From Candidatus Poribacteria bacterium (GTDB lineage Bacteria > Poribacteria > WGA-4E > PCPOR2b): a DNA stretch of 64,000 nt. Where the stretch lies: NCBI GenBank assembly GCA_028819845.1, contig JAPPKS010000030.1, positions 62,001 through 126,000 on the forward strand. Direction: 5' to 3'. The position numbers were made by a program, and so were the translations under genes. Numbering within the stretch: position 1 is the stretch's first letter; every line of letters starts with the position of its first letter. The notes beneath the pieces are model-generated. The model made no database searches. It was not told where the DNA came from and was given only the letters and a program-made list of their open reading frames with translations. Positions 20,567-32,827 of the stretch are shown here, piece after piece.

Positions 20567-20755
20567 ATGAAGGTTAGAAACCTCATTAAGTTGATTGAAA
20601 GGGATGGTTGGTATTTGGTTCGGACTCGGGGTAGTCACCGGCAGTTCCGACACCCGACCAAATTTGGCACTGTTACGGTTTCTGGAAAATTAGCACTGGA
20701 TGTGCCTATAGGTACACTGAACAGTGTTCTCAAACAAGCCCGCCTCAAAGACTAA
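20567..20755 (+). CDS. hicA: HicA-type mRNA interferase toxin
   Basis: The 62-residue protein is a YcfA/HicA-family double-stranded-RNA-binding-fold toxin. V-R-N-L-I-K-L-I-E-R-D-G-W, then R-T-R-G-S-H-R-Q-F-R-H-P gives the catalytic histidine (S-H), followed by a strand (G-T-V-T-V-S-G) and L-A-L-D-V-P-I-G-T-L-N-S-V-L-K-Q-A for the last helix. It cleaves mRNA unless bound by HicB, whose gene starts 13 bases downstream. Toxin first, antitoxin second is the usual hicAB order. It sits at the left border of the phosphorothioation island. Confidence 0.94.
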   Translation: MKVRNLIKLIERDGWYLVRTRGSHRQFRHPTKFGTVTVSGKLALDVPIGTLNSVLKQARLKD

Positions 20756-20768
20756 CTTGGAGGATTCC

Positions 20769-20984
20769 ATGCAATACCTCGTAATTTTTGAAAAAGGAGA
20801 GAATAGTTACGGAGCCTATGTGCCGGACTTACCCGGCTGCGCCGCAGTTGGAGAGACGATGGACGAGGCGCGCGGATTAATAACAGAAGCCATCCAATTC
20901 CATATTGAGGGTCTGCGTGAAGATGGTTGTGTTGTTCCACTGCCATCTTCAACCGTTGCATTTATTGATGTCGCTGCTGTCTGA
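20769..20984 (+). CDS. hicB: HicB-type antitoxin
   Basis: The 71-residue protein starts at 20769 with GGAGG 6 bases upstream. The degraded RNase H-like fold of HicB is visible: Q-Y-L-V-I-F-E-K-G-E-N-S-Y-G-A-Y-V-P-D-L-P-G-C-A-A-V-G-E-T and E-A-R-G-L-I-T-E-A-I-Q-F-H-I-E-G-L. It neutralises HicA. No C-terminal DNA-binding domain is attached, so autoregulation, if any, needs another factor. It is translationally close to hicA (20567-20755). Confidence 0.94.
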   Translation: MQYLVIFEKGENSYGAYVPDLPGCAAVGETMDEARGLITEAIQFHIEGLREDGCVVPLPSSTVAFIDVAAV

Positions 20985-21116: not shown

Positions 21117-22049
21117 ATGACGCAATATTCAAAATCTCCCCCAGAAAAAATCAAACCCTCCTTCTCCGGTCACGAAACTTTCCCGTTCCGCTACACTTGG
21201 TTAAAAAAAGGCGTTGACGCGGTGAAAAATGACCCCGCCGTCTTTAGCAGTGACCGCGCCACAATCACGCTCGGCGTCGGCAAGAACATGGTGCGTTCCA
21301 TTCGCCACTGGTGCATTACTGCGGGATTCATTCAGGCAAGTGCGGATCGTAAGCGTTTTGAACCGACCCCCCTCGGCAGCGCCATCTTCGCCGATGGCGG
21401 GTTCGACCCATACCTTGAGGACACCGCGACCCTCTGGCTAATCCACGCGCAACTAGCGGCGAACGCCGACCGCGCCACCACGTGGTATTGGGCGTTTGGT
21501 GTTTTTGCCCAGAGTGAGTTTGGGAAGAAGAAGTTTACCGCCGATCTGATGGATTGGTCTGAAAGGAGTGGAGCGAAACGAATCGCGGAAAATTCGATTA
21601 AACGCGATGTCGATTGCTTTCTCCGTACCTACGTCTCCTCTCGGCTAACACAAACTACGATTTTGGAAGATTCTTTCAACTGTCCGCTCGTTGAATTAAA
21701 TCTCATCTCCGATTCCGCCGACGAAACGACATTTCTATTTCATCGCGGACCAAAAGATTCGCTGCCGACCGAGGTTTTCGCCGCTGCACTGTCCCAATTC
21801 TGGGATTCTAATTTTTACGGTCGAAGTTCGCTTGCGTTAGGTGAAATTACATATTCACCAAAAAGCCCCGGCAAGATTTTTAAGCTGGACGTGGATTCCG
21901 TCGTCCAATATCTTGAGGAGGTCGAAACCCTCACCGACGGCGCCCTGCGCTACGACGAAACCGCAGGCTTAAAACAGGTCTACCGTGACCGAAAAATCTC
22001 CCCGATGAATCTACTGAGTAGGTACTACGGCAAAAGCTACAACAAATGA
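21117..22049 (+). CDS. DUF4007 protein, SspB-like phosphorothioation component
   Basis: The 310-residue protein begins K-P-S-F-S-G-H-E-T-F-P-F-R-Y-T-W-L-K-K-G, the hallmark of DUF4007. It continues I-T-L-G-V-G-K-N-M-V-R-S-I-R-H-W, P-T-P-L-G-S-A-I-F, and a W-x-I-H-A-Q-L region. As I recall it, the nickase SspB of SspABCD systems (single-strand DNA phosphorothioation) is of this family; that assignment is from memory. The C-terminus K-I-S-P-M-N-L-L-S-R-Y-Y is also typical. In this window it precedes SspC-, SspD- and SspE-like genes on the same strand, which supports the role. No catalytic residues could be assigned from sequence alone. Confidence 0.88.
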   Translation: MTQYSKSPPEKIKPSFSGHETFPFRYTWLKKGVDAVKNDPAVFSSDRATITLGVGKNMVRSIRHWCITAGFIQASADRKRFEPTPLGSAIFADGGFDPYLEDTATLWLIHAQLAANADRATTWYWAFGVFAQSEFGKKKFTADLMDWSERSGAKRIAENSIKRDVDCFLRTYVSSRLTQTTILEDSFNCPLVELNLISDSADETTFLFHRGPKDSLPTEVFAAALSQFWDSNFYGRSSLALGEITYSPKSPGKIFKLDVDSVVQYLEEVETLTDGALRYDETAGLKQVYRDRKISPMNLLSRYYGKSYNK

Positions 22050-22820: not shown

Positions 22821-25800
22821 ATGTTTGCTCTCCACTCGCCACTCACCACTATGAACAAACCACTCTCCGAGCTCTTTCAGGTCACCGGGCGTTTTCGTAG
22901 ATCGGTTCACCTTGAACGTGACTTCTATGCCGAAAACTCGCTGGATGGCTACGTCGTAACCGTCACCGCACGCGAATCGTTGCGCCGTCTGATTTCCGCA
23001 CTTGAAAACGGTGCTGAGACCAAAGCTTGGTCGTTCACAGGCCCCTACGGCTCAGGCAAATCCGCATTCGCGCTTTTTGCCGCGAAACTGCTCGGAGACC
23101 CGGGTTCACCGGCGACCCAAAGCGCACTGAATCTGCTTGAACGCGGCGATATCTTCTTATGGGATCGGTTCGTCGAGGCGCGTAACAACCGGCGGAAGGA
23201 ACGGGGTTTCTGTCCTGTCCTTATCTCCGGCGAACGTGCTCCCATCACAACCAGTTTGCTGCGCGGACTAGTAAAAGGTCTCACCCAATTCGATAGTAAT
23301 GGCTCAGAGATTCGTTCGCTAATCTCCGAGGTCGACGCACGCTTGGACGCCGCGGCTAACGGAACCCTTCCCCCTGCGTCCGAAATCACAGGTCTTTTTG
23401 AATCGGCAACGGTACAGATTGGCGCTGCAGGCGGCGCTGGACTAATATTGGTCGTCGACGAGCTTGGCAAGTTCCTCGAATATGCGGCGCAACACCCGTC
23501 CCACGGGGACGTGTTCGTCCTGCAAAGCCTGGCGGAATTTGCATCGAGAAGCGAAGAAAGCCCTCTATTCTTGCTCACAATCCTCCATCAAGCCTTTGAA
23601 CATTATGCACAGCGAATGGGAGCATCGCAACGCGAGGAGTGGGCGAAAATTCAAGGCCGGTTCGAGGATGTCGCCTTCATGGAACCGGCGGAACAGGTGC
23701 TCCGCCTGATTGGAAACGCGATTGAAAGAGATGTTGTTGCGCCGCAGGATTTAGATCGTAGCGTTCTCGCCGATTCGGTCGACTTAGAACTCAAACCGCG
23801 CCAACTGAGTACCTCTGATTTTCTACAAATCCTTGAAAGCTGCCTGCCGCTTCACCCGACAGTTGCCCTCATGGTCGGATCGCTTTTTCGCCGATTCGCG
23901 CAAAACGAACGCTCACTGTTCGCCCTGCTCAACTCCGCCGAACCGCACGGACTCCAAGATTTTCTTGTAACCCATTCATATGACGGCAACCGGTTTCCGC
24001 TATTTTCACTCCCCGATTTGTACGACTATATCAACACCGCCCTTGGGAATCGCCTGTATACCGCTAGCGACGGCAAGAAATGGGCGGGGATTGAATCCGC
24101 CATCTCGCGATTGCCGAACCCATCGCCGATGACCGTGAAAATAATCAAAACCATCGGCCTTCTCGGCGTCGTCGGGGAGGTGAGCGCAAATCTGAAGTGC
24201 TCAAAGCCCCTACTCCGGTATGCGCTTGACGATGGCACGCATACTTTCTCTCAAGAATTTGAGCATGCAATGTCGGAATTGGTAAAGCGATCGATTGCGA
24301 TTTACCGCCGGTACAACGACGCCTATGCCCTCTGGGAAGGGAGCGACATCGACATTGAATCACGCCTCGCCGAAGCGGCAGCACAGTTTGATTTAAATCA
24401 AGGATTGGCGTCCACCATTTCGTCGCTGCTGCCGCCCCGACCGCTCATTGCCCGGCGGCATCTCCATCTGACTGGAACATTGCGGTATTTCGTGGTTCGA
24501 TACACTGACGTTGGACGGTTTGAATCCGATCTCGGAAAGCCTATAGAGGATGCCGACGGTATAATTCTCTATACGCTCCCTACAAGCGAATCTGAAGCCG
24601 AGTCGCTTGCGAAGAAAGTAGCCAAAGCGTCCGTCGCCGATCGAAACGATGTTATCGTCGCGATTCCTCGTTCCATCGGTCTCTTGCAGGAGGCTGTCGT
24701 TGAACTAGCGCGTTTGCGCTGGGTTAAAGATAAAACACCCGAACTCGATGGCGACGCTACGGCGCGCCGCGAACTCGCGGCGCGCACGACGGAGGCGGAA
24801 CGTGCCGTATCTGACCAGTTGACATCCCTCTTCGGTTCAAACATCGCCGCACAGGATGGAGGAAAATGTATTTGGTATTATGGCGGCAATGCAATACCGA
24901 TTGCTACAAGGCGAGATTTGAACGCACTTCTTTCCAAAATATGCGATAGCGTGTACCACAAAGCACCAATTATCCGTAACGAACTCATCAATCAACGTCG
25001 TCTGTCTCACTCCGCCTCACGGGCGCGAAAAATGCTAATTGCCGCAATGCTTGAGCGCGCAGATCAAGCGAACCTCGGTATCGACGGCTATCCGCCGGAA
25101 ATGAGCGTTTACCTCTCACTACTATCGGACACCGGTATACATCGCAACGAGTCGGGTGAATGGGGGTTTCACCCGCCAAAAACAGATAACGACGGCAGGA
25201 TGTCTTATACTTGGTCAACGATTGAGACGTTTCTTGATGAATGTGAGATGGAGCGTCAATGTATCTCAAAGCTCTACGACCGTTTAGAAAAACCGCCAAT
25301 CGGTTTGCGAAATGGACCTATACCAATCCTGCTGTGCTCAGTTTTGCTGCATTACGAATCCGAAATCGCACTTTACGAAGATGGTTCCTTTGTCACGGAC
25401 ATCTCGTCCGCCGTTTTTGAGCGGATAATCAAGTCGCCGGAGAAATTTGAACTCAAGCGTTTCCGCATGAGCGGAATTCGATCAGAGGTGTTCACGCAAT
25501 TCTTGGGACTGCTTTCACAACCGCCGCCCCTAACGGGACCGCCGAGCTTGTTAGCTGTCGTTAAGCCGCTCGTCCGTTTCGTCGCCAAACTGCCGCGGTA
25601 CACGATGCTCACTCAAGAACTGAGCTGCGAAGCAATCGAATTGCGGAAAACCATAAGCGATGCGCGAGAACCCGACACACTTCTGTTCGTTCAATTGCCT
25701 CAAGCACTCGGGTTTGATGCGTTCGGTCCTTACGAAGAAATGGATTCAACGACTGTTGGCAGATTTTTCAATACATTGCGTAGAGAATTGTCTCAGCTAA

Positions 25801-26390
25801 ATCGGGCGTATGACGACTTATTGACATCGCTCGCACAACTCATTGCTTCAGCATTCTCATTAAAAGGAGGCACCGAAACGATTCAAGTGGAACTCAATAC
25901 GCGAGCCGAACCGCTGCTGGAGTTAACCATTGAGACAAAACTCAAGGGCTTTCTTATTCGGGTCTGTGATGCTGAACTTAATTTCAAGAATTGGCTTGAA
26001 GCAATCGGCACCTATATAGTCCAAAAACCTCCGGCAGCGTGGAATGACACGGACAAAACCCAGTTTGAGATGGACCTCTCCGAACTCGCACGGAAGTTCC
26101 ACCACTTTGAAGCCGTTTCCTTTGAGCGGCACAAGCAATCTGATGAATTTGCAGATAGTGCGGGGGAAGTCATGCGCGTCGGCATAACCACGCTCACAGC
26201 AAAGGAGCAAGAACGTGTCATATCTATACCTCCGACCGCCGAGGAAGAAGCAAAATTCATTGAGCGCGAAATTGAGGGAGTTTTCGACGCCTATGATCCC
26301 GATGGAGATGCAGAATTTCGCCTCGCCGTTCTCGCGCGCATCTCACGAAAATTGATGGAGCAAATTGAAGACCAGACAGCGAAAGAATAA
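22821..26390 (+). CDS. Large P-loop ATPase, SspC-like phosphorothioation component
   Basis: The 1189-residue protein has Walker A G-P-Y-G-S-G-K-S at residues 74-81 and Walker B L-I-L-V-V-D-E-L-G-K-F at 208-218, an AAA/STAND-like N-terminal ATPase. The remaining ~900 residues have no domain that I recognise. The start at 22821 follows GGGAG at 10 bases; the ATG at 22851 (M-N-K-P-L-S-E-L-F) is a credible alternative. Position between DUF4007 and PAPS-reductase-like genes fits SspC, the ATPase of SspABCD systems, thought to drive the modification complex on DNA. The 78-residue gene at 26395 begins 4 bases after its stop, so they are co-transcribed. Confidence 0.85.
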   Translation: MFALHSPLTTMNKPLSELFQVTGRFRRSVHLERDFYAENSLDGYVVTVTARESLRRLISALENGAETKAWSFTGPYGSGKSAFALFAAKLLGDPGSPATQSALNLLERGDIFLWDRFVEARNNRRKERGFCPVLISGERAPITTSLLRGLVKGLTQFDSNGSEIRSLISEVDARLDAAANGTLPPASEITGLFESATVQIGAAGGAGLILVVDELGKFLEYAAQHPSHGDVFVLQSLAEFASRSEESPLFLLTILHQAFEHYAQRMGASQREEWAKIQGRFEDVAFMEPAEQVLRLIGNAIERDVVAPQDLDRSVLADSVDLELKPRQLSTSDFLQILESCLPLHPTVALMVGSLFRRFAQNERSLFALLNSAEPHGLQDFLVTHSYDGNRFPLFSLPDLYDYINTALGNRLYTASDGKKWAGIESAISRLPNPSPMTVKIIKTIGLLGVVGEVSANLKCSKPLLRYALDDGTHTFSQEFEHAMSELVKRSIAIYRRYNDAYALWEGSDIDIESRLAEAAAQFDLNQGLASTISSLLPPRPLIARRHLHLTGTLRYFVVRYTDVGRFESDLGKPIEDADGIILYTLPTSESEAESLAKKVAKASVADRNDVIVAIPRSIGLLQEAVVELARLRWVKDKTPELDGDATARRELAARTTEAERAVSDQLTSLFGSNIAAQDGGKCIWYYGGNAIPIATRRDLNALLSKICDSVYHKAPIIRNELINQRRLSHSASRARKMLIAAMLERADQANLGIDGYPPEMSVYLSLLSDTGIHRNESGEWGFHPPKTDNDGRMSYTWSTIETFLDECEMERQCISKLYDRLEKPPIGLRNGPIPILLCSVLLHYESEIALYEDGSFVTDISSAVFERIIKSPEKFELKRFRMSGIRSEVFTQFLGLLSQPPPLTGPPSLLAVVKPLVRFVAKLPRYTMLTQELSCEAIELRKTISDAREPDTLLFVQLPQALGFDAFGPYEEMDSTTVGRFFNTLRRELSQLNRAYDDLLTSLAQLIASAFSLKGGTETIQVELNTRAEPLLELTIETKLKGFLIRVCDAELNFKNWLEAIGTYIVQKPPAAWNDTDKTQFEMDLSELARKFHHFEAVSFERHKQSDEFADSAGEVMRVGITTLTAKEQERVISIPPTAEEEAKFIEREIEGVFDAYDPDGDAEFRLAVLARISRKLMEQIEDQTAKE

Positions 26391-26394
26391 ATTA

Positions 26395-26631
26395 ATGGCA
26401 GGTAAGAGCACAATGCAAGATGAACTTCGACCGCAATATGACTTGAAAAACCTGCAGGTGAGGAAGACGGGACGTGAGCGAAAGCACTTTGGTAGGTTGG
26501 TTGTAAAGCTAGAACCTGATGTTGCCGCGGTGTTTCCAAACGCGGCATCTGTGAATAAGGCACCGCGATTTCTGATCCGAATCACCAAGGAAAACGGGGA
26601 GGCACTTCCCATTCCTGAGGATAAAGCCTGA
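26395..26631 (+). CDS. Small conserved protein of unknown function
   Basis: From the ATG at 26395 the product is 78 residues, starting 4 bases after the stop of the SspC-like gene. The sequence Y-D-L-K-N-L-Q-V-R-K-T-G-R-E-R-K-H-F-G and L-E-P-D-V-A-A-V-F-P-N-A-A-S-V-N-K-A-P-R-F-L-I looks like a small conserved protein family found scattered in diverse bacteria, often as the second gene next to toxin-like or accessory genes. No catalytic motif is evident. The tight spacing suggests translation coupled with SspC, and a role in the system is possible but unproven. Confidence 0.72.
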   Translation: MAGKSTMQDELRPQYDLKNLQVRKTGRERKHFGRLVVKLEPDVAAVFPNAASVNKAPRFLIRITKENGEALPIPEDKA

Positions 26632-27010
26632 CATTTATAGCCATTGCGACTTAAAAGTATACATTTACTCATTGCTTTGTGGGAGAAGATTCCTAGCCTC
26701 GATTATCAATCAGTCGATTCCTTCTTAAGAAAATATAAACCGAAAGAAAATTGCTCGAAATCACGGAGAGGTCATATTCCATATACCTGCGTGAGTTCTA
26801 ACAAAAAGCGGATAACATGATTAGGTTTTGTTGACATTTGGCATCCCGTAGGTTGAATTGAACGGTTAAACGGCAGTCCCTATCAAGTACAAAGGAATCT
26901 TTTGTAACACAATCTGTTAGATTGTGATCCGAGCCCGCAAACTAACAGTTTGCGCTACTTATATCAGATTATCCAATGGTGACAACGTTTGCCGAATCAG
27001 TAGCCTCAAA
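26632..27010. repeat. 379-base intergenic region with repeats, including a twin-hairpin unit
   Basis: A diverged family A copy lies at 26677-26722 (GGGAGAAGATTCCTAGCC). A twin hairpin lies at 26908-26954 and a family C end at about 26849 (CGTAGGTTGAATTGAACGG). No gene was recognised. Confidence 0.7.
26908..26954. repeat. Twin-hairpin (REPIN-like) element
   Basis: CACAATCT-GTT-AGATTGTG (26908-26926) and CGCAAACT-AAC-AGTTTGCG (26936-26954) are perfect 8-bp hairpins 9 bases apart. The second is close to the reverse complement of the first, so the pair behaves as two related hairpins in inverted orientation, the layout of REPIN/BIME elements. Confidence 0.75.
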
Positions 27011-27271
27011 ATGTCAACAGAACCTAGAAACAAAGACGGCATGAAAATCTTTTATGACTGTGAAGCCGACGTTCTTTACGTCACTTGTGGGACACCGGGA
27101 TTCACAGACTATGTTGAATACTCCGAAGATGTGATTCTGCGTCTTGATCCTGAATCCAAACGGTTAATCGGATTTACAATCATTGATTTTTCGTATCACT
27201 TCGCCAAACAGGAAGCAGACATCACGCTTCCCTTCCGTGTTGATTTCCAAATGTTTGAACAAGCCAGCTAG
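27011..27271 (+). CDS. DUF2283-family small protein
   Basis: The product has 86 residues from 27011, or 76 from the ATG at 27041, which is where DUF2283 proteins usually begin. The core M-K-I-F-Y-D-C-E-A-D-V-L-Y-V, V-E-Y-S-E-D-V-I-L-R-L-D, G-F-T-I-I-D-F-S is typical of this family of small beta proteins, which often sit beside toxin-antitoxin modules and other mobile gene sets. The biochemical role of the family is not known. It lies between the SspC- and SspD-like genes, surrounded by repeats. Confidence 0.8.
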   Translation: MSTEPRNKDGMKIFYDCEADVLYVTCGTPGFTDYVEYSEDVILRLDPESKRLIGFTIIDFSYHFAKQEADITLPFRVDFQMFEQAS

Positions 27272-27651
27272 AACGCATGAAACTAGGGGTTTGAAGTTCC
27301 TATCTACACATGATACAATATGGAAATAGGCTTAAAAGCCCCCCCTGACAAGGGATCAACTGAGCGAATAGCGAAGGATCAATCGAATGAATAGTGAGGG
27401 CGATAGTTTTACGCCTTCATTAGTCTTAAAATGCCTTTCCCAATGTGAGAACGCCTTGTCTATTCATCACAATAATCATTCCCCTCCTTACTATGGAGGA
27501 TCAACTGACCGAATAGGGAAGGCGATAGTTTTTGTAGTTTTTCTTGGTTCATGTAGATTGGGTTAATCGCTGTTCCTAGCATCCTCATTAAGATGTAAGT
27601 AATAGTAAGCTGACAAGTGCAACACATGCGTAGAAACCAGAGAACAAACCA
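27272..27651. repeat. 380-base intergenic region with family B and C fragments
   Basis: Two copies of a short unit (GGATCAACTGACCGAATAGG and GGATCAACTGAGCGAATAGC, each followed by GCGATAGTTTT-like sequence) occur near 27353-27410 and 27493-27532. A family B half (CCCCTCCTTACTATGGAGG) lies near 27480-27498. No gene was recognised. Confidence 0.65.
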
Positions 27652-28485
27652 ATGAAGAACGATTCCACAGAACAAAATAGACGCCACATCCTCGGGCTCT
27701 CGGGCGGCAAAGATAGCTCCGCACTCGCAGTGTACATGCGGGACAAAGTACCGGATATGGAATACGCCTTCTGCGACACTGGAAAAGAGTTGCCGGAGAC
27801 TTACGAATTTCTCGATCGGTTGGAAGCGTTTCTGGGCAAGAAGGTTGAACGACTTAACGCCGAGCGCGAATTCGATCATTGGCTATCGGTATTCGGCGGA
27901 TTGCTTCCATCGGCTCAGGTGCGCTGGTGTACGCGCCTACTCAAAATCAAACCCTTTGAGGAATTCGTCGGCGATGATCTGGCTTACAACTACGTCGCCA
28001 TCCGCGCCGACGAAGACCGCGTCGGTTACAAACCCCTCAAGACCGTTGCACTCCGAAACATTGAACCCAAGTACCCGTTCAAAGAGGACGGTATAACTGA
28101 GACCGATGTCTATCGCATTCTGGAGGAGAGCGGTCTCGGCTTGCCGGAATACTATAAATGGCGAACCCGTTCCGGATGCTATTTCTGTTTCTACCAACGC
28201 AAAGCCGAATGGGTTGGGTTGATGGAGAATCACTCCGATCTATTTGAACTCGCTAAGGGTTACGAGAAGTTCAACGAAGAAACAGGTGAAAGATTCACGT
28301 GGAGTCAAGGCGAGAGCCTTGTAGAACTCTCTGACACTGAAAGAATTAAGCAAATCAAGGAAAACTACAGGAAAGCGATTGAACGGACTAAGGCGTCCCA
28401 ACCAAATCGACGGTTGTTAGAAATTTTTGGCGATGTGCTAGATGACGAAGACAATGAGGAACCGTGTTTGATATGTCATAAGTAA
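27652..28485 (+). CDS. PAPS-reductase-family ATP pyrophosphatase, SspD/DndC-like
   Basis: The 277-residue protein has the PP-loop S-G-G-K-D-S at residues 17-22, which binds ATP for substrate adenylation. F-C-D-T-G-K-E-L-P-E-T-Y is the typical second motif of the PAPS reductase/DndC family. Cysteines in V-R-W-C-T-R, G-C-Y-F-C-F-Y and the C-terminal C-L-I-C-H could bind an Fe-S cluster or zinc, as reported for DndC. It is predicted to activate DNA phosphate for sulfur transfer in phosphorothioation. The SspE-like gene follows after 36 bases. It resembles SspD more by context than by any single residue. Confidence 0.9.
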   Translation: MKNDSTEQNRRHILGLSGGKDSSALAVYMRDKVPDMEYAFCDTGKELPETYEFLDRLEAFLGKKVERLNAEREFDHWLSVFGGLLPSAQVRWCTRLLKIKPFEEFVGDDLAYNYVAIRADEDRVGYKPLKTVALRNIEPKYPFKEDGITETDVYRILEESGLGLPEYYKWRTRSGCYFCFYQRKAEWVGLMENHSDLFELAKGYEKFNEETGERFTWSQGESLVELSDTERIKQIKENYRKAIERTKASQPNRRLLEIFGDVLDDEDNEEPCLICHK

Positions 28486-28521
28486 TAATTCGTATTAGGC
28501 TATATTATGAGGAGAATTTTC

Positions 28522-30810
28522 GTGCGACCAGTCTCGGATATTTTCAAAGCAGAAGCTGATAATTTTGAAAACACGATGAACAGTCATGGCGGAGATGTCG
28601 GTTTTCGGGTTCCGGAATATCAACGTACCTACGATTGGAACAAAGAAAATATCAAACGACTCCTTGAGGATTGTTTAAATGGATTCTACTATCTTTCTAG
28701 CCCCAATAATGAATCGTATACCTTCCTAGGGACATTAATTCTTGTCTCAGAGAATCCCGAGCCTTCGTTTGATGGAACTTCACTTTCTATAGTGGACGGA
28801 CAACAGAGATTAACAACGCTAACCCTTCTCTGCTGTGCGTTAATTGAGGAATTGTTTCTCCGACAGGATGAGGTTTGCCATCTTCAAGAAGCCACTATTA
28901 GCTGGATAAAAAGGGAGATTGAATACATTCACGAAAGGTTATTTGACTGTGTTAGAGGACAACTTCGCAGGCGCGATCTAATAGCTAGATTTCCTCGTGT
29001 AGTCCGTCTTCCCGACGATAACCGCGGGTTTAGTCCTTCCGAGGCAGAGTATCGTTCGGTAATCGCCAATTTCTTGATAAATTTTGCCAATCACTATTCA
29101 CAAAGCGACTCTGACTTCATTCCTGCGACATCAGAAAATGATGTTGAGGCAGGTCGATTTTTTCAAAACTATAAATACATAAAAGAACAAGTTAAACTAG
29201 GCATATATAAAGGCGACGATACACCGACTGCCGGGAAACAAAGCGAACTAGATCACAATCAAATTGGTCATGAGGATTTTCAGAAATCAGGATTGCGCAA
29301 TTTATTTGAAAAACTTAACACGCTGCCTGAACAAGCGGAGAAAGATCGCGCGATTAGCGACATCGCTAGCAATTCCTATTCAAGTGGACTTATTCGAATC
29401 ATGTTATTTTCTCATTACGTGTTGAGATCCGTTATTCTAACACGGGTTGAAACGGACGATGAAGATACAGCCTTTGATATTTTTGACTCTCTCAATACAA
29501 CAGGCGAACCGTTGACAGCTATTGAGACCTTCAAACCTCGGGTAATGAGTTTTGAACGCAATACCGAAAATGCTAGTTACAGTGGATCCGAGAGTGCGAG
29601 ACAGTTTGAAAGGCTTGAGGCTAATTTAAATGATATTTATCTCGAAACTGACAAACGGCAGAAAGAGACTAAAGAATTACTTGTTACATTTGCCTTATAT
29701 CTAGAAGGCCGCAAGTTGCCACTAAACCTTAATTCTCAGCGCAGTTATTTGCGATTAAAATTTGAAGAAGCTGCGAATTCAAACTTCAAGCGTCGAATCG
29801 TTCGATTGTTAGCGGACATTGCAGAATTTCGACAAACTTATTGGAACCGAGACTCTATCCGAACTCTCGACAGTATCCATCCCAACTCCGCGAGTGATTG
29901 GCTAAAATTGTGCTGCACAGTCATATCTGACATGAAAACAAGTTTGGCCATTCCAATAATGGCAAGATTTTGGGCACAATATCAGCAGGATAAAATCGAG
30001 CATAATTTCGCGGATGCAGTGAAGGCAATAACCGCATTTCTTATCTTAAGGCGGTCGGTAACAGGCAATACGGGAAGAATTGATTCCGACTTTAGAAAGA
30101 TGATGGGAACACTGTGCATAGGCTTAAATGATTCAAATTCAATTCCTAGTTTGGATGATTTTAAGAAGATATTGAGAGAATATTTGGCTGTTCGGCGTAT
30201 CGGAGTGGAAAACAAAGACACTTGGGTTGCTAAAGTGTGTGAAGTACCTTTAGCTGAACATTCACAGCCTTTGTGTCGGTTCTTACTCTTTGCCGCTTCC
30301 AACAATGCTATAATGGATCAGGAGAAACCGGGGCTTCTTACACGCGAAACAGTAATCCCCAGCGATCAATTGGCCTACCTTAACTATAGCAAATGGAAAG
30401 ATGATAAATATGCGACCGTTGAGCACGTAGCACCGGTTTCGAACTCCGATGGCTGGGACGAAGAAATATACTCGCCGTTAGACACTCATAATTTGATAGG
30501 TAACATTATTCTGCTTCCGCAAAAGGAAAACTCAAGTGTTGGCAACGCCCCTTGGGCGAAGAAAAAGATATTTTACCGAGCGTTAGTCGCGGAAAGGGAA
30601 CCAGAAAGAAACAGTCAATTTGAAAAAGCAAAGGAGGAAGGGTTAACTTTCAAGAATCAGACCATAGATTTGCTCAACGCACAAGGACGGCTTGATATGC
30701 TAGATCCTATTGCTAAAGTGAATCGGTGGACAAAATCAACTATACAAAAACGGACGAAAAACATCCTCCAACTCGCATGGGATGAAATATCACCTTGGCT
30801 AGGTTACTGA
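28522..30810 (+). CDS. DUF262 + DUF1524 (HNH) restriction effector, SspE-like
   Basis: The 762-residue product starts at GTG 28522, 7 bases after GAGGAG; the in-frame ATG at 28507 overlaps that site. The N-terminal DUF262 domain has R-V-P-E-Y-Q-R-T-Y-D-W (about residues 29-39) and V-D-G-Q-Q-R-L-T-T-L (91-100), the nucleotide-binding DGQQR of GmrS/SspE proteins. The C-terminal DUF1524 HNH-type domain has E-H-V-A-P (near 634) and H-N-L-I-G-N (near 656) with N-S-S-V-G-N and a lysine-rich helix. SspE senses phosphorothioate and nicks unmodified phage DNA. Codons look more A+T-rich than in the SspC-like gene. Confidence 0.9.
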   Translation: MRPVSDIFKAEADNFENTMNSHGGDVGFRVPEYQRTYDWNKENIKRLLEDCLNGFYYLSSPNNESYTFLGTLILVSENPEPSFDGTSLSIVDGQQRLTTLTLLCCALIEELFLRQDEVCHLQEATISWIKREIEYIHERLFDCVRGQLRRRDLIARFPRVVRLPDDNRGFSPSEAEYRSVIANFLINFANHYSQSDSDFIPATSENDVEAGRFFQNYKYIKEQVKLGIYKGDDTPTAGKQSELDHNQIGHEDFQKSGLRNLFEKLNTLPEQAEKDRAISDIASNSYSSGLIRIMLFSHYVLRSVILTRVETDDEDTAFDIFDSLNTTGEPLTAIETFKPRVMSFERNTENASYSGSESARQFERLEANLNDIYLETDKRQKETKELLVTFALYLEGRKLPLNLNSQRSYLRLKFEEAANSNFKRRIVRLLADIAEFRQTYWNRDSIRTLDSIHPNSASDWLKLCCTVISDMKTSLAIPIMARFWAQYQQDKIEHNFADAVKAITAFLILRRSVTGNTGRIDSDFRKMMGTLCIGLNDSNSIPSLDDFKKILREYLAVRRIGVENKDTWVAKVCEVPLAEHSQPLCRFLLFAASNNAIMDQEKPGLLTRETVIPSDQLAYLNYSKWKDDKYATVEHVAPVSNSDGWDEEIYSPLDTHNLIGNIILLPQKENSSVGNAPWAKKKIFYRALVAEREPERNSQFEKAKEEGLTFKNQTIDLLNAQGRLDMLDPIAKVNRWTKSTIQKRTKNILQLAWDEISPWLGY

Positions 30811-31423
30811 CGTACACAGTGAATGTAGGTTGGGTTGAACGGGCTGGCGAATCCCAACGATCAACTGAGCGGATAAGGAAGGCGATTGCCTTCAAGTCTT
30901 CACCTCGTAACCAATTGTAGCCCAATTGGTTAATCGCAAAGCCTTTTAAACCCACCCGATGACTGACACCGCTGCAATTCACCCCTTGTTTTATGGATTG
31001 TAAGAGCTGGAACTCGCTGGTCAAAGACCAGTCAGTTGCTCTTGAGCGAGACAGTGTACCTGAGAACAAGGTGCGTATGCTATCTGTGTGACGTTCAAAA
31101 CACTGAATTTCTACCAAAACTCCTTTAAGACTCTCAATGAAATTATCTGCGTGGAAAAATTAAACTGTCTTCGTAGGCAATTCCTTGAACACTGTGACCG
31201 CGCTAGACTTGGAGTTCAGCTAGCAAAGGGGTGTATTGGCAATAACTTTGAATATCGGTTTACAATTGTCGATGCTAACGAATTGATGAACTTGATACCT
31301 GTTTGATTGAATGCTTTGAGGCGCCGACAAATCTTAAATATAGACATATTGCAGCGAGAATAGGAAGTTCAAAACCGGCTTGATGGTGCGACAAACCATC
31401 AAGTTCAATGGAGGAAGTCTCTG
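30811..31423. repeat. 613-base intergenic region with a family C repeat
   Basis: A family C element starts at about 30823 (TGTAGGTTGGGTTGAACGG) and continues with ATCAACTGAGCGGATAAGG, a CTTCAAGTCTTCACC segment and CTTTTAAACCCACCCGATGA to about 31020. A 72-residue frame at 31088-31306 has no homolog that I can see and was not called. A promoter-like sequence lies at 31316-31344. Confidence 0.65.
31316..31344 (+). promoter_or_regulatory. Possible sigma-70 promoter for the DndB-like gene
   Basis: TTGAGG (31316-31321), 17-base spacer, TATAGA (31339-31344), 79 bases before the ATG at 31424. It would let the putative regulator be expressed separately from the SspD/E-like genes. Confidence 0.45.
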
Positions 31424-32827
31424 ATGAATATTTATCCCGCATTACGTTCTAGAATGGGAACGTTTAGTTACTATGTCGTGAAGATGAGTGCGCGAGAACT
31501 AAGTGAAAACGTGAAATTTGCTTCTGAAGTTTATGAAGATCGCACCCTTGATGAAGCAATTCAGCGAGTCTTAAGACACGACAGAGTCAATAAGGAAATC
31601 GTCGAATATCTGAAACACCAACCCAATCGTTTCTTCTCCTCTTTGGTCGTGGCCGCGTTAGAAGGCAATCCGATGTTCTATCCTGTTGAGATTACTGACG
31701 ATCCACATTTCGCAATTTTTCATGATGATCAGCGACTCAACGAGTCTTTTGGAGTCTTGAAGTTCGATGGAACCCAGAAATACTATGCCCTTGATGGACA
31801 GCATCGCCTCTCAGCCATCAAGACTTTGCTTGATCGAAACAATCCAATTTCCGATGGTGCTCCTGAAAATTTTGAGAACGATGAACTTTCCGTAATCGTC
31901 ATTGTACCTAGTCGGGAAGAGTCCGACTTCTTGCCAAAGTACCGGCGATTGTTCTCCAATCTTAACCGCTATGCCAAACCGACGGATGCAGCAACGAACA
32001 TCATAATGGATGAAGACGATACGTTTGCCATTCTCACACGGCGCTTGATTACCGAGCATAATTTCTTCAAATCTGAAGGCAGACAGATAGAATCAAGGCG
32101 TATAAAAACACAAAAAGGAAAAAACCTCAAGAGTATTGATCCGTACTTCACTAGCCTCGAAACCTTGTACGAGATGAACACAGCGCTGCTTAGTTCGGCA
32201 CGCCGAACGCCAAGAGGATGGGGTCCAATTTTGGACCAAGGACAAGATTTGAAGAATTTCAAGCGGTTTCGTCCCCCCGAAGACTACATTGATGCGCTTT
32301 ACGAAGAATTGGAGATGTATTGGAATGCCTTAATCGCCGAAATCCCAGATCTTCAAAAATCTCCACCCCTGATGCGGGTTCATCACATTGAATTAATCGA
32401 GGGCGAAGAGATGACAGATTCCCTTTTGTTTTGGCCTATAGGTCAACAGTTGCTAGCCGAATTCGCGAGAACCCTACTCGACAACAACCTTCCCAATGTG
32501 GCAACTCCGACTGCTGATGGGGTCCGTACAGCGTTAAAGGGACTTGGCAGGTTAGAATGGCGGCTGCATCAAGCTCCTTGGCGGTATCTCCTGTTGGTAC
32601 GCAACGCAAAGGGTGACTGGGCAATGCGTAATGAGGAGAGGAAGGAGGCAGTCCGTTGCGGGCGTAGAATTCAACAGTGGATAATTGGTCTAGAGGAGCT
32701 TGACGAGAGTGGTGTTGACGAACTGAAAAGGCTTTGGAGTAGTATGCTGATTCCGCAGCCGCGTGGAGAAGATCGTGACAAATTGTGGAAACGCGTTGAA
32801 GACCTGAAATTGTCCGTAAGTGGGTGA
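31424..32827 (+). CDS. DGQHR-domain protein, DndB-like
   Basis: The 467-residue protein carries Y-A-L-D-G-Q-H-R-L-S-A-I at residues 121-132, the defining DGQHR motif of DndB and its relatives. The N-terminus with F-S-Y-Y-V-V-K-M-S-A-R-E-L and the stretch R-F-F-S-S-L-V-V-A-A-L-E-G-N-P also fits DNA sulfur modification protein DndB. DndB represses the dnd operon and binds DNA in Dnd systems; here it is expected to regulate or tune the Ssp-like genes. GGAGGA lies about 8 bases upstream of the ATG. It is separated from the SspE-like gene by 613 bases of repeats and may have its own promoter. Confidence 0.88.
   Translation: MNIYPALRSRMGTFSYYVVKMSARELSENVKFASEVYEDRTLDEAIQRVLRHDRVNKEIVEYLKHQPNRFFSSLVVAALEGNPMFYPVEITDDPHFAIFHDDQRLNESFGVLKFDGTQKYYALDGQHRLSAIKTLLDRNNPISDGAPENFENDELSVIVIVPSREESDFLPKYRRLFSNLNRYAKPTDAATNIIMDEDDTFAILTRRLITEHNFFKSEGRQIESRRIKTQKGKNLKSIDPYFTSLETLYEMNTALLSSARRTPRGWGPILDQGQDLKNFKRFRPPEDYIDALYEELEMYWNALIAEIPDLQKSPPLMRVHHIELIEGEEMTDSLLFWPIGQQLLAEFARTLLDNNLPNVATPTADGVRTALKGLGRLEWRLHQAPWRYLLLVRNAKGDWAMRNEERKEAVRCGRRIQQWIIGLEELDESGVDELKRLWSSMLIPQPRGEDRDKLWKRVEDLKLSVSG

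Follow-up and report, generated by a model that had tools for sequence, protein, structure and literature searches.

Analysis of a 64-kb stretch of Candidatus Poribacteria DNA (the window) indicates that the DGQHR-motif gene lying downstream of its phosphorothioation genes encodes a protein that is not DndB but a member of a different family. We propose that this protein forms the ParB/Srx half of a mobile cassette, made up of GIY-YIG and DGQHR genes with or without an SNF2 helicase gene, which occupies the variable effector slot of phosphorothioation (PT) systems, mainly SspBCD and sometimes Dnd, and in which NTP and PT sensing would gate a nuclease. We assign this reading a probability of roughly 0.55. 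The family of the protein, its intactness, its linkage to PT genes, its pairing with GIY-YIG, the GIY-YIG relic beside it and its separation from DndB were observed or computed directly.

The Ssp locus and its DGQHR gene

The window carries SspB, SspC, SspD and SspE as PADLOC matches that are contiguous, in order and on the same strand, and that together constitute an Ssp gene set (Table 1). SspA was not found in the 64 kb, and SspF, SspG and SspH had no PADLOC match among the ten window proteins scanned. SspE looks intact, keeping DGQQR at residue 97 and YQR at residue 38, the latter resembling Y30-Q31-R32, the phosphorothioate pocket residues of Streptomyces SspE (PMC9646914). The preliminary description of this DNA had raised the prospect of a third variant of phosphorothioation, an idea at odds with SspB, SspC and SspD, all of which are ordinary.

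Table 1. Features of the Ssp locus, in window coordinates
Feature	Coordinates	Strand	Evidence or state
SspB (DUF4007)	21117..22049	+	PADLOC SspB 3.8e-99, Pfam DUF4007 6.4e-91
SspC (BrxC-like ATPase)	22821..26390	+	PADLOC SspC E 0, 1088 bits
SspD (PAPS-reductase-like sulfurtransferase)	27652..28485	+	PADLOC SspD 7.6e-116
SspE (GmrSD_N/DUF262 + HNH/DUF1524)	28507..30810	+	PADLOC SspE 6.1e-255, Pfam
Decayed, frame-shifted GIY-YIG nuclease gene (relic)	31009..31380	+	Three collinear tblastn blocks, two frames
DGQHR (ParB/Srx-superfamily, DndB-like) protein gene	31424..32827	+	Intact, ATG start, 467 aa
Small ORF, 118 aa	33159..33515	+	blastp 2.8e-32 to 2.3e-7 to relatives, alignment

Several other features of the neighborhood were recorded. 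A 1.26-kb gap separates sspC from sspD (26391-27651) and contains a DUF2283 ORF (26924-27271); most relatives have tight sspCD spacing. Just 5' of sspB (20567-20984) are two small ORFs that, on sequence impression, look like a HicA/HicB toxin-antitoxin pair. Elsewhere in the same genome, contig C34 (L271, 8240-11727) bears a DndC (573 bits, above cut-off) and DndD pair. In other Poribacteria, relatives of the 118-aa ORF sit 3' of PbeA/PbeC cassettes; in other phyla they are fused into a protein of about 255 aa directly upstream of GIY-YIG-DGQHR-SNF2. This ORF is possibly a component of the cassette.

The DGQHR gene itself has a Shine-Dalgarno-like GGAGG immediately 5' of its ATG, and the N-terminus of its orthologues (MNIYPAL) agrees with the called start. 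A sequence check placed the DGQHR motif exactly at residues 124-128, as previously described. The protein matches the Pfam DndB family PF14072 at 118.7 bits (E 3.8e-34; cut-off 29.1) and the TIGR03187 DGQHR domain at 105 bits (cut-off 58.9), and it is the only PF14072 match in the 4.6-Mb genome, where no DndB was found elsewhere and no other protein matched the DndB superfamily. All three superfamily motifs, DGQHR, QR and FxxxN, are present (D124-R128, R69 and F177-N181); these are invariant across the family of the window protein, which keeps every family-invariant residue. Divergence from L031, its nearest relative, is 0.21, 0.15 and 0.48 at the first, second and third codon positions, and this third-position bias suggests that the gene is under purifying selection. 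A sequence-profile search for solved structures of the protein found none, a fold search with its model yielded no more than weak matches to ParB-N (best E 0.11, probability 0.72), which are not counted as proof, and no HNH domain was found in the protein. A phage origin of the gene was considered and set aside, as there were just three weak matches to phage records, one of which is a Salmonella chromosomal contig.

Relationship to DndB

The preliminary description treated DGQHR as the hallmark of DndB and proposed a DndB-like regulator captured from Dnd; model scores, the tree and coexistence with true DndB all argue against this proposal. The motif belongs to the superfamily at large and thus gives no sign of capture from Dnd: SspE carries its own DGQQR, and the GmrS/DUF262 and DGQHR domains have DGQ(Q/H)R, QR and FxxxN motifs in common (PMC4619093). 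Against the DndB equivalog model TIGR03233 the window protein scores 51.1 bits, well below the curated cut-off of 328. Membership of TIGR04172 (DGQHR_dnd_1), a Dnd satellite family with no assigned role (PMC3226654), was ruled out by a score of 23.6 bits relative to a cut-off of 450. That family resembles the window protein in comprising DGQHR proteins that adjoin a PT system and are distinct from DndB, but it falls on another branch of the tree and is reported with Dnd only.

In the phylogeny called for by the preliminary description (96 rows, from a quick search, with some long branches elsewhere and an unsure deep order), the nine reference DndB sequences, like the DndB of Desulfospira, are separated from the window protein by a branch with SH-aLRT support of 96, which places it outside canonical DndB. 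Its own clade comprises 33 rows with support of 91, and within this clade a fully supported poribacterial group holds the window protein. In each of two genomes a true DndB (531 and 506 bits) coexists with a protein related to the window family (84 and 70 bits), and in Rhizobium sp. NXC14 and in a Salmonella Infantis element dndB lies next to a distinct DGQHR gene. Gene order differs as well: the DGQHR gene lies downstream of sspBCD-sspE and not ahead of dndCDE, and the window has no DndC or DndD. The window protein thus shares with DndB the PF14072/DGQHR superfamily and a phosphorothioation context, but differs in its separate clade, longer C-terminus, downstream position and the pairing of its family with a nuclease. 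In NCBI-style annotation, DGQHR proteins linked to GIY-YIG genes (L260, 8002-9288, and L261, 8986-10239) carry the name "DndB", in Rhizobium sp. NXC14 although the true dndB is the neighboring gene. The "DndB" label is thus over-applied.

The nuclease partner and its linkage to phosphorothioation systems

Among the best 80 loci of a cross-phylum scan of 84,980 species genomes, at least 56 have a gene of 145-200 aa encoding a GIY-YIG protein directly 5' of the DGQHR gene, a number that rises if merged ORFs are included, and in 12 the two genes overlap by 4 bp. A partner gene directly upstream is likewise present in 23 of 36 poribacterial loci. An alignment of 31 GIY-YIG members showed G-Y, Y-G, R and E to be invariant and N nearly so; Pfam GIY_YIG_2 was above cut-off for one member. 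The AlphaFold model of the partner (pLDDT 90) has UvrC GIY-YIG and R.Eco29kI as its top PDB matches, both with a probability of 1.00. By sequence and modeled fold, the upstream partner in these intact relatives belongs to the GIY-YIG nuclease family. The "hypothetical" gene upstream of DGQHR in four annotated records belongs to the same partner family (E 1e-30 to 1e-39), and PADLOC-DB 2.0.0 gave no match for any GIY-YIG partner protein scanned. A SWI2/SNF2 helicase gene follows DGQHR in 23 of the best 80 loci, giving the array SspB-SspC-SspD-GIY-YIG-DGQHR-SNF2 in, for example, L121, L122, L125, L126 and L131.

The window retains only a trace of this arrangement. A relic fills part of the 614 bp that separate SspE from the DGQHR gene. 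It was detected as blocks at 31009-31029, 31070-31294 and 31279-31380 (best E 1.6e-19, in comparison with the unbroken GIY-YIG genes of related loci) and stops 44 bp short of the start of the DGQHR gene; the corresponding spacing in the intact loci L034 and L038 is 37-39 bp. Three active-site residues of the catalytic signature (Y, G and R) are lost: the YIG-type motif reads CVE and the arginine is changed, which goes beyond a sequencing slip and makes this gene a pseudogene. The GIY-YIG gene of L031 is also frame-shifted. No SNF2 helicase was found in the window. The separate promoter formerly suggested for the DGQHR gene at 31316-31344 (TTGAGG-N17-TATAGA, with 8 of its 12 positions fitting the consensus by eye) falls within the last of the relic's coding blocks, and it is absent from the 7 promoter-like sites returned by a consensus scan, a number to be read against a chance expectation of 3.8 ± 2.0.

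Comparison of poribacterial loci points to an exchange of effectors. The slot after SspD may hold SspE, GIY-YIG plus DGQHR, a GmrSD_N-HNH protein, PbeA/PbeC, a gene of about 220 aa with a 715-790 aa DndB-like protein, or others. Of 11 poribacterial loci compared, all four in which no other effector separates SspD from DGQHR have an intact GIY-YIG gene, whereas six of the seven with such an effector lack the gene or carry a broken copy (Fisher p = 0.015, uncorrected for kinship). This contrast fits a GIY-YIG nuclease that can be replaced by SspE and the like while DGQHR is retained.

Other occupants of the slot, and a further neighbor of the pair, were also observed. A second recurrent Ssp cassette consists of, in many cases, the gene of about 220 aa followed by the 715-790 aa protein, which has a weakly DndB-like N-terminus (L042 3473-6461, L037, L094, L096, L100, L209, L213-L215 and L217); roughly 7 of the 55 randomly drawn Ssp loci encode the long protein. 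DndB-like proteins of a third group (604-642 aa) occupy the Ssp effector slot of L132 (7254-9520), L134, L135, L136, L140, L064 and L091, usually after a gene of about 150-270 aa. PbeA/PbeC-type genes, described with Dnd in archaea, lie directly 3' of SspD in place of SspE in L044 (8662-13226), L093, L095, L098, L099 and L171, with the assignment made by PADLOC match for L044 and by similarity or by size and order for the others. A 416-aa GmrSD_N+HNH protein, far shorter than SspE, sits in the SspE position of L034 (11600-12850), L036 and L039, and a protein of about 818 aa with a HATPase_c_3 (MORC/Hsp90-like) match adjoins GIY-YIG+DGQHR in L042 (6474-8930), L043, L045, L047 and L061.

The attachment of a DndB-superfamily gene to an Ssp set, as originally described, is genuine and recurs across phyla; it is neither limited to this genome nor unrelated to phosphorothioation, since the clade is tied to PT genes and recurs in other genomes. 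A survey of 85 poribacterial genomes found full-length close relatives (62-72% identity) in ten others, in all ten cases downstream of SspBCD on the same strand. In L033 (8907-12170) and L035 (8506-11537) the DGQHR gene is tandem-duplicated behind one GIY-YIG gene. Of the best 80 loci from the cross-phylum scan, 56 have at least two of SspB, SspC and SspD, 10 have DndC and DndD, and 14 have neither, this last group including several on short contigs and three with one Ssp gene. Thus 66 of the 80 are tied to two unrelated PT modification systems, mostly contiguously and on the same strand, in more than 10 phyla. Among the genomes scanned, the close relatives are Candidatus Poribacteria MAGs, which places the window in that phylum. 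Outside Poribacteria, 24 of the 30 loci of the window's clade are Ssp-linked, which represents all 24 with adequate flanks; contigs end near the gene in the remaining six, one of which nonetheless has SspC.

In the reverse direction, the GIY-YIG+DGQHR pair was present in 1 of 55 random Ssp loci drawn from Pseudomonadota, Cyanobacteriota, Chloroflexota and Actinomycetota. This draw rules out the cassette as a general Ssp component; it is a minority cassette among Ssp loci. In Poribacteria, about 16 of 57 SspD loci have a DGQHR gene of the window kind within 10 kb. DndC/DndD genes adjoin the pair in several genomes with a second poribacterial subfamily (L048-L062), which weakens the idea that this subfamily has no tie to phosphorothioation; in five genomes bearing it, neither SspD nor DndC was found.

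Proposed function and alternatives

In SspE, the pocket that recognizes PT adjoins the DGQQR site for NTP, whose hydrolysis switches the HNH nickase of the protein (PMC9646914); DndI acts likewise on Dnd marks (PMC11662687). SspE, DndI and GmrSD (DUF262+DUF1524) resemble the DGQHR protein in their ParB/Srx-type domain, their DGQ(Q/H)R, QR and FxxxN motifs, their PT context and their use of the same effector slot. Unlike the DGQHR cassette with its separate GIY-YIG gene, SspE and DndI have the HNH nuclease fused. By analogy, we infer that the DGQHR protein would bind NTP through its DGQHR site and would sense self DNA bearing PT marks, much as SspE, a distant relative, does by means of DGQQR, and that this sensing would gate a nuclease against unmarked DNA. 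The nuclease would be the separate GIY-YIG protein, with a helicase added in many loci. In the window, DGQHR could be either an auxiliary PT sensor or regulator beside SspE, perhaps cooperating with it, or a survivor on its way out.

Some observations count against the cassette reading. DGQHR also occurs beside SspE, PbeA/C and SspFGH-like genes, as a pure regulator would, and the nuclease partner is dead in the window's genome, making the proposed working impossible there. The rarity of the pair in the random Ssp draw, the weak ParB-N fold matches and the five genomes that lack both SspD and DndC point in the same direction. We also consider, more tentatively and at slightly less than even odds, that GIY-YIG+DGQHR(+SNF2) is an undescribed PT restriction module, with a DGQHR protein of ParB/Srx type that would read the sulfur mark and so control the GIY-YIG nuclease encoded beside it. 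It would then be one of several missing partners of "orphan" sspBCD, with the window caught midway in its exchange for SspE.

The alternative that survives best, although we regard it as unlikely, is that the protein is a DndB-like repressor of the ssp operon, an autoregulator limiting phosphorothioation independently of any nuclease. It belongs to the same superfamily as DndB, which represses dndBCDE in Salmonella (PMC4507180), and in L042 and L043 the DGQHR gene is just upstream of sspB. This explanation retains some weight because the DGQHR gene outlives its nucleases, persisting as they change in the window, L036, L037, L039 and L040. Yet the protein is no DndB equivalog, sits in a separate clade and has relatives that coexist with true DndB; its gene usually closes the array, in translational coupling with a nuclease gene, instead of opening a modification operon; and its family is rare in Ssp systems overall, though all would need regulation. 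The Salmonella DndB-type operator palindrome TACG-N10-CGTA, from which an operator here may differ, was absent upstream of both sspB and the DGQHR gene and occurred at chance level across the window.

A somewhat poorer explanation, which we consider improbable, is that the DGQHR gene no longer functions here and is left over from a GIY-YIG cassette in decay, activity being confined to SspBCD-SspE. The frame-shifted partner without its active-site residues, the lack of SNF2 in the window and the apparently intact SspE would all be expected in this case, but the DGQHR ORF is itself intact, with family-invariant residues and the codon-position bias of a constrained gene, and the orthologues in L036, L037, L039 and L040, which are without any GIY-YIG gene, are intact as well. 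That the gene is a mere hitch-hiker in a defense island, adjacent to Ssp with no functional tie to phosphorothioation, is very improbable: six relatives' loci with usable flanks have no Ssp or Dnd gene nearby and some genomes are without SspD and DndC, but the PT linkage of the best 80 loci across phyla is far beyond what island clustering would give.

The cassette proposed here has partial parallels among described systems. SspABCD-SspFGH (PMC8092258) also attaches a multi-gene restriction module to sspBCD and is compatible with SspE, but its SspF is a Walker-A protein and its SspH an FtsK-like protein, and no GIY-YIG or DGQHR component is described. URI/GIY-YIG nucleases from the vicinity of Dnd genes appear in a list of nucleases in a 2024 survey (PMC10853773), which likewise places a GIY-YIG nuclease in a PT gene neighborhood; the part of that account considered here concerns Dnd only, without DGQHR pairing or a link to Ssp, whereas the GIY-YIG+DGQHR pair adjoins both Dnd and Ssp systems. 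No published link of DGQHR to Ssp was found in the open-access literature searched, and the novelty of the cassette is accordingly provisional.

In conclusion, these sequence comparisons point to an apparently new candidate restriction cassette for PT systems, found attached to Ssp and also to Dnd. A prior survey found that 2,211 of 2,678 sspBCD sets are without sspE and sspFGH and asked about other restriction partners (Wang et al. 2021, PMC8092258). While it would cover a minority of such loci, the GIY-YIG+DGQHR(+SNF2) cassette provides a testable candidate, and may be among the restriction partners so far missing for "orphan" sspBCD.
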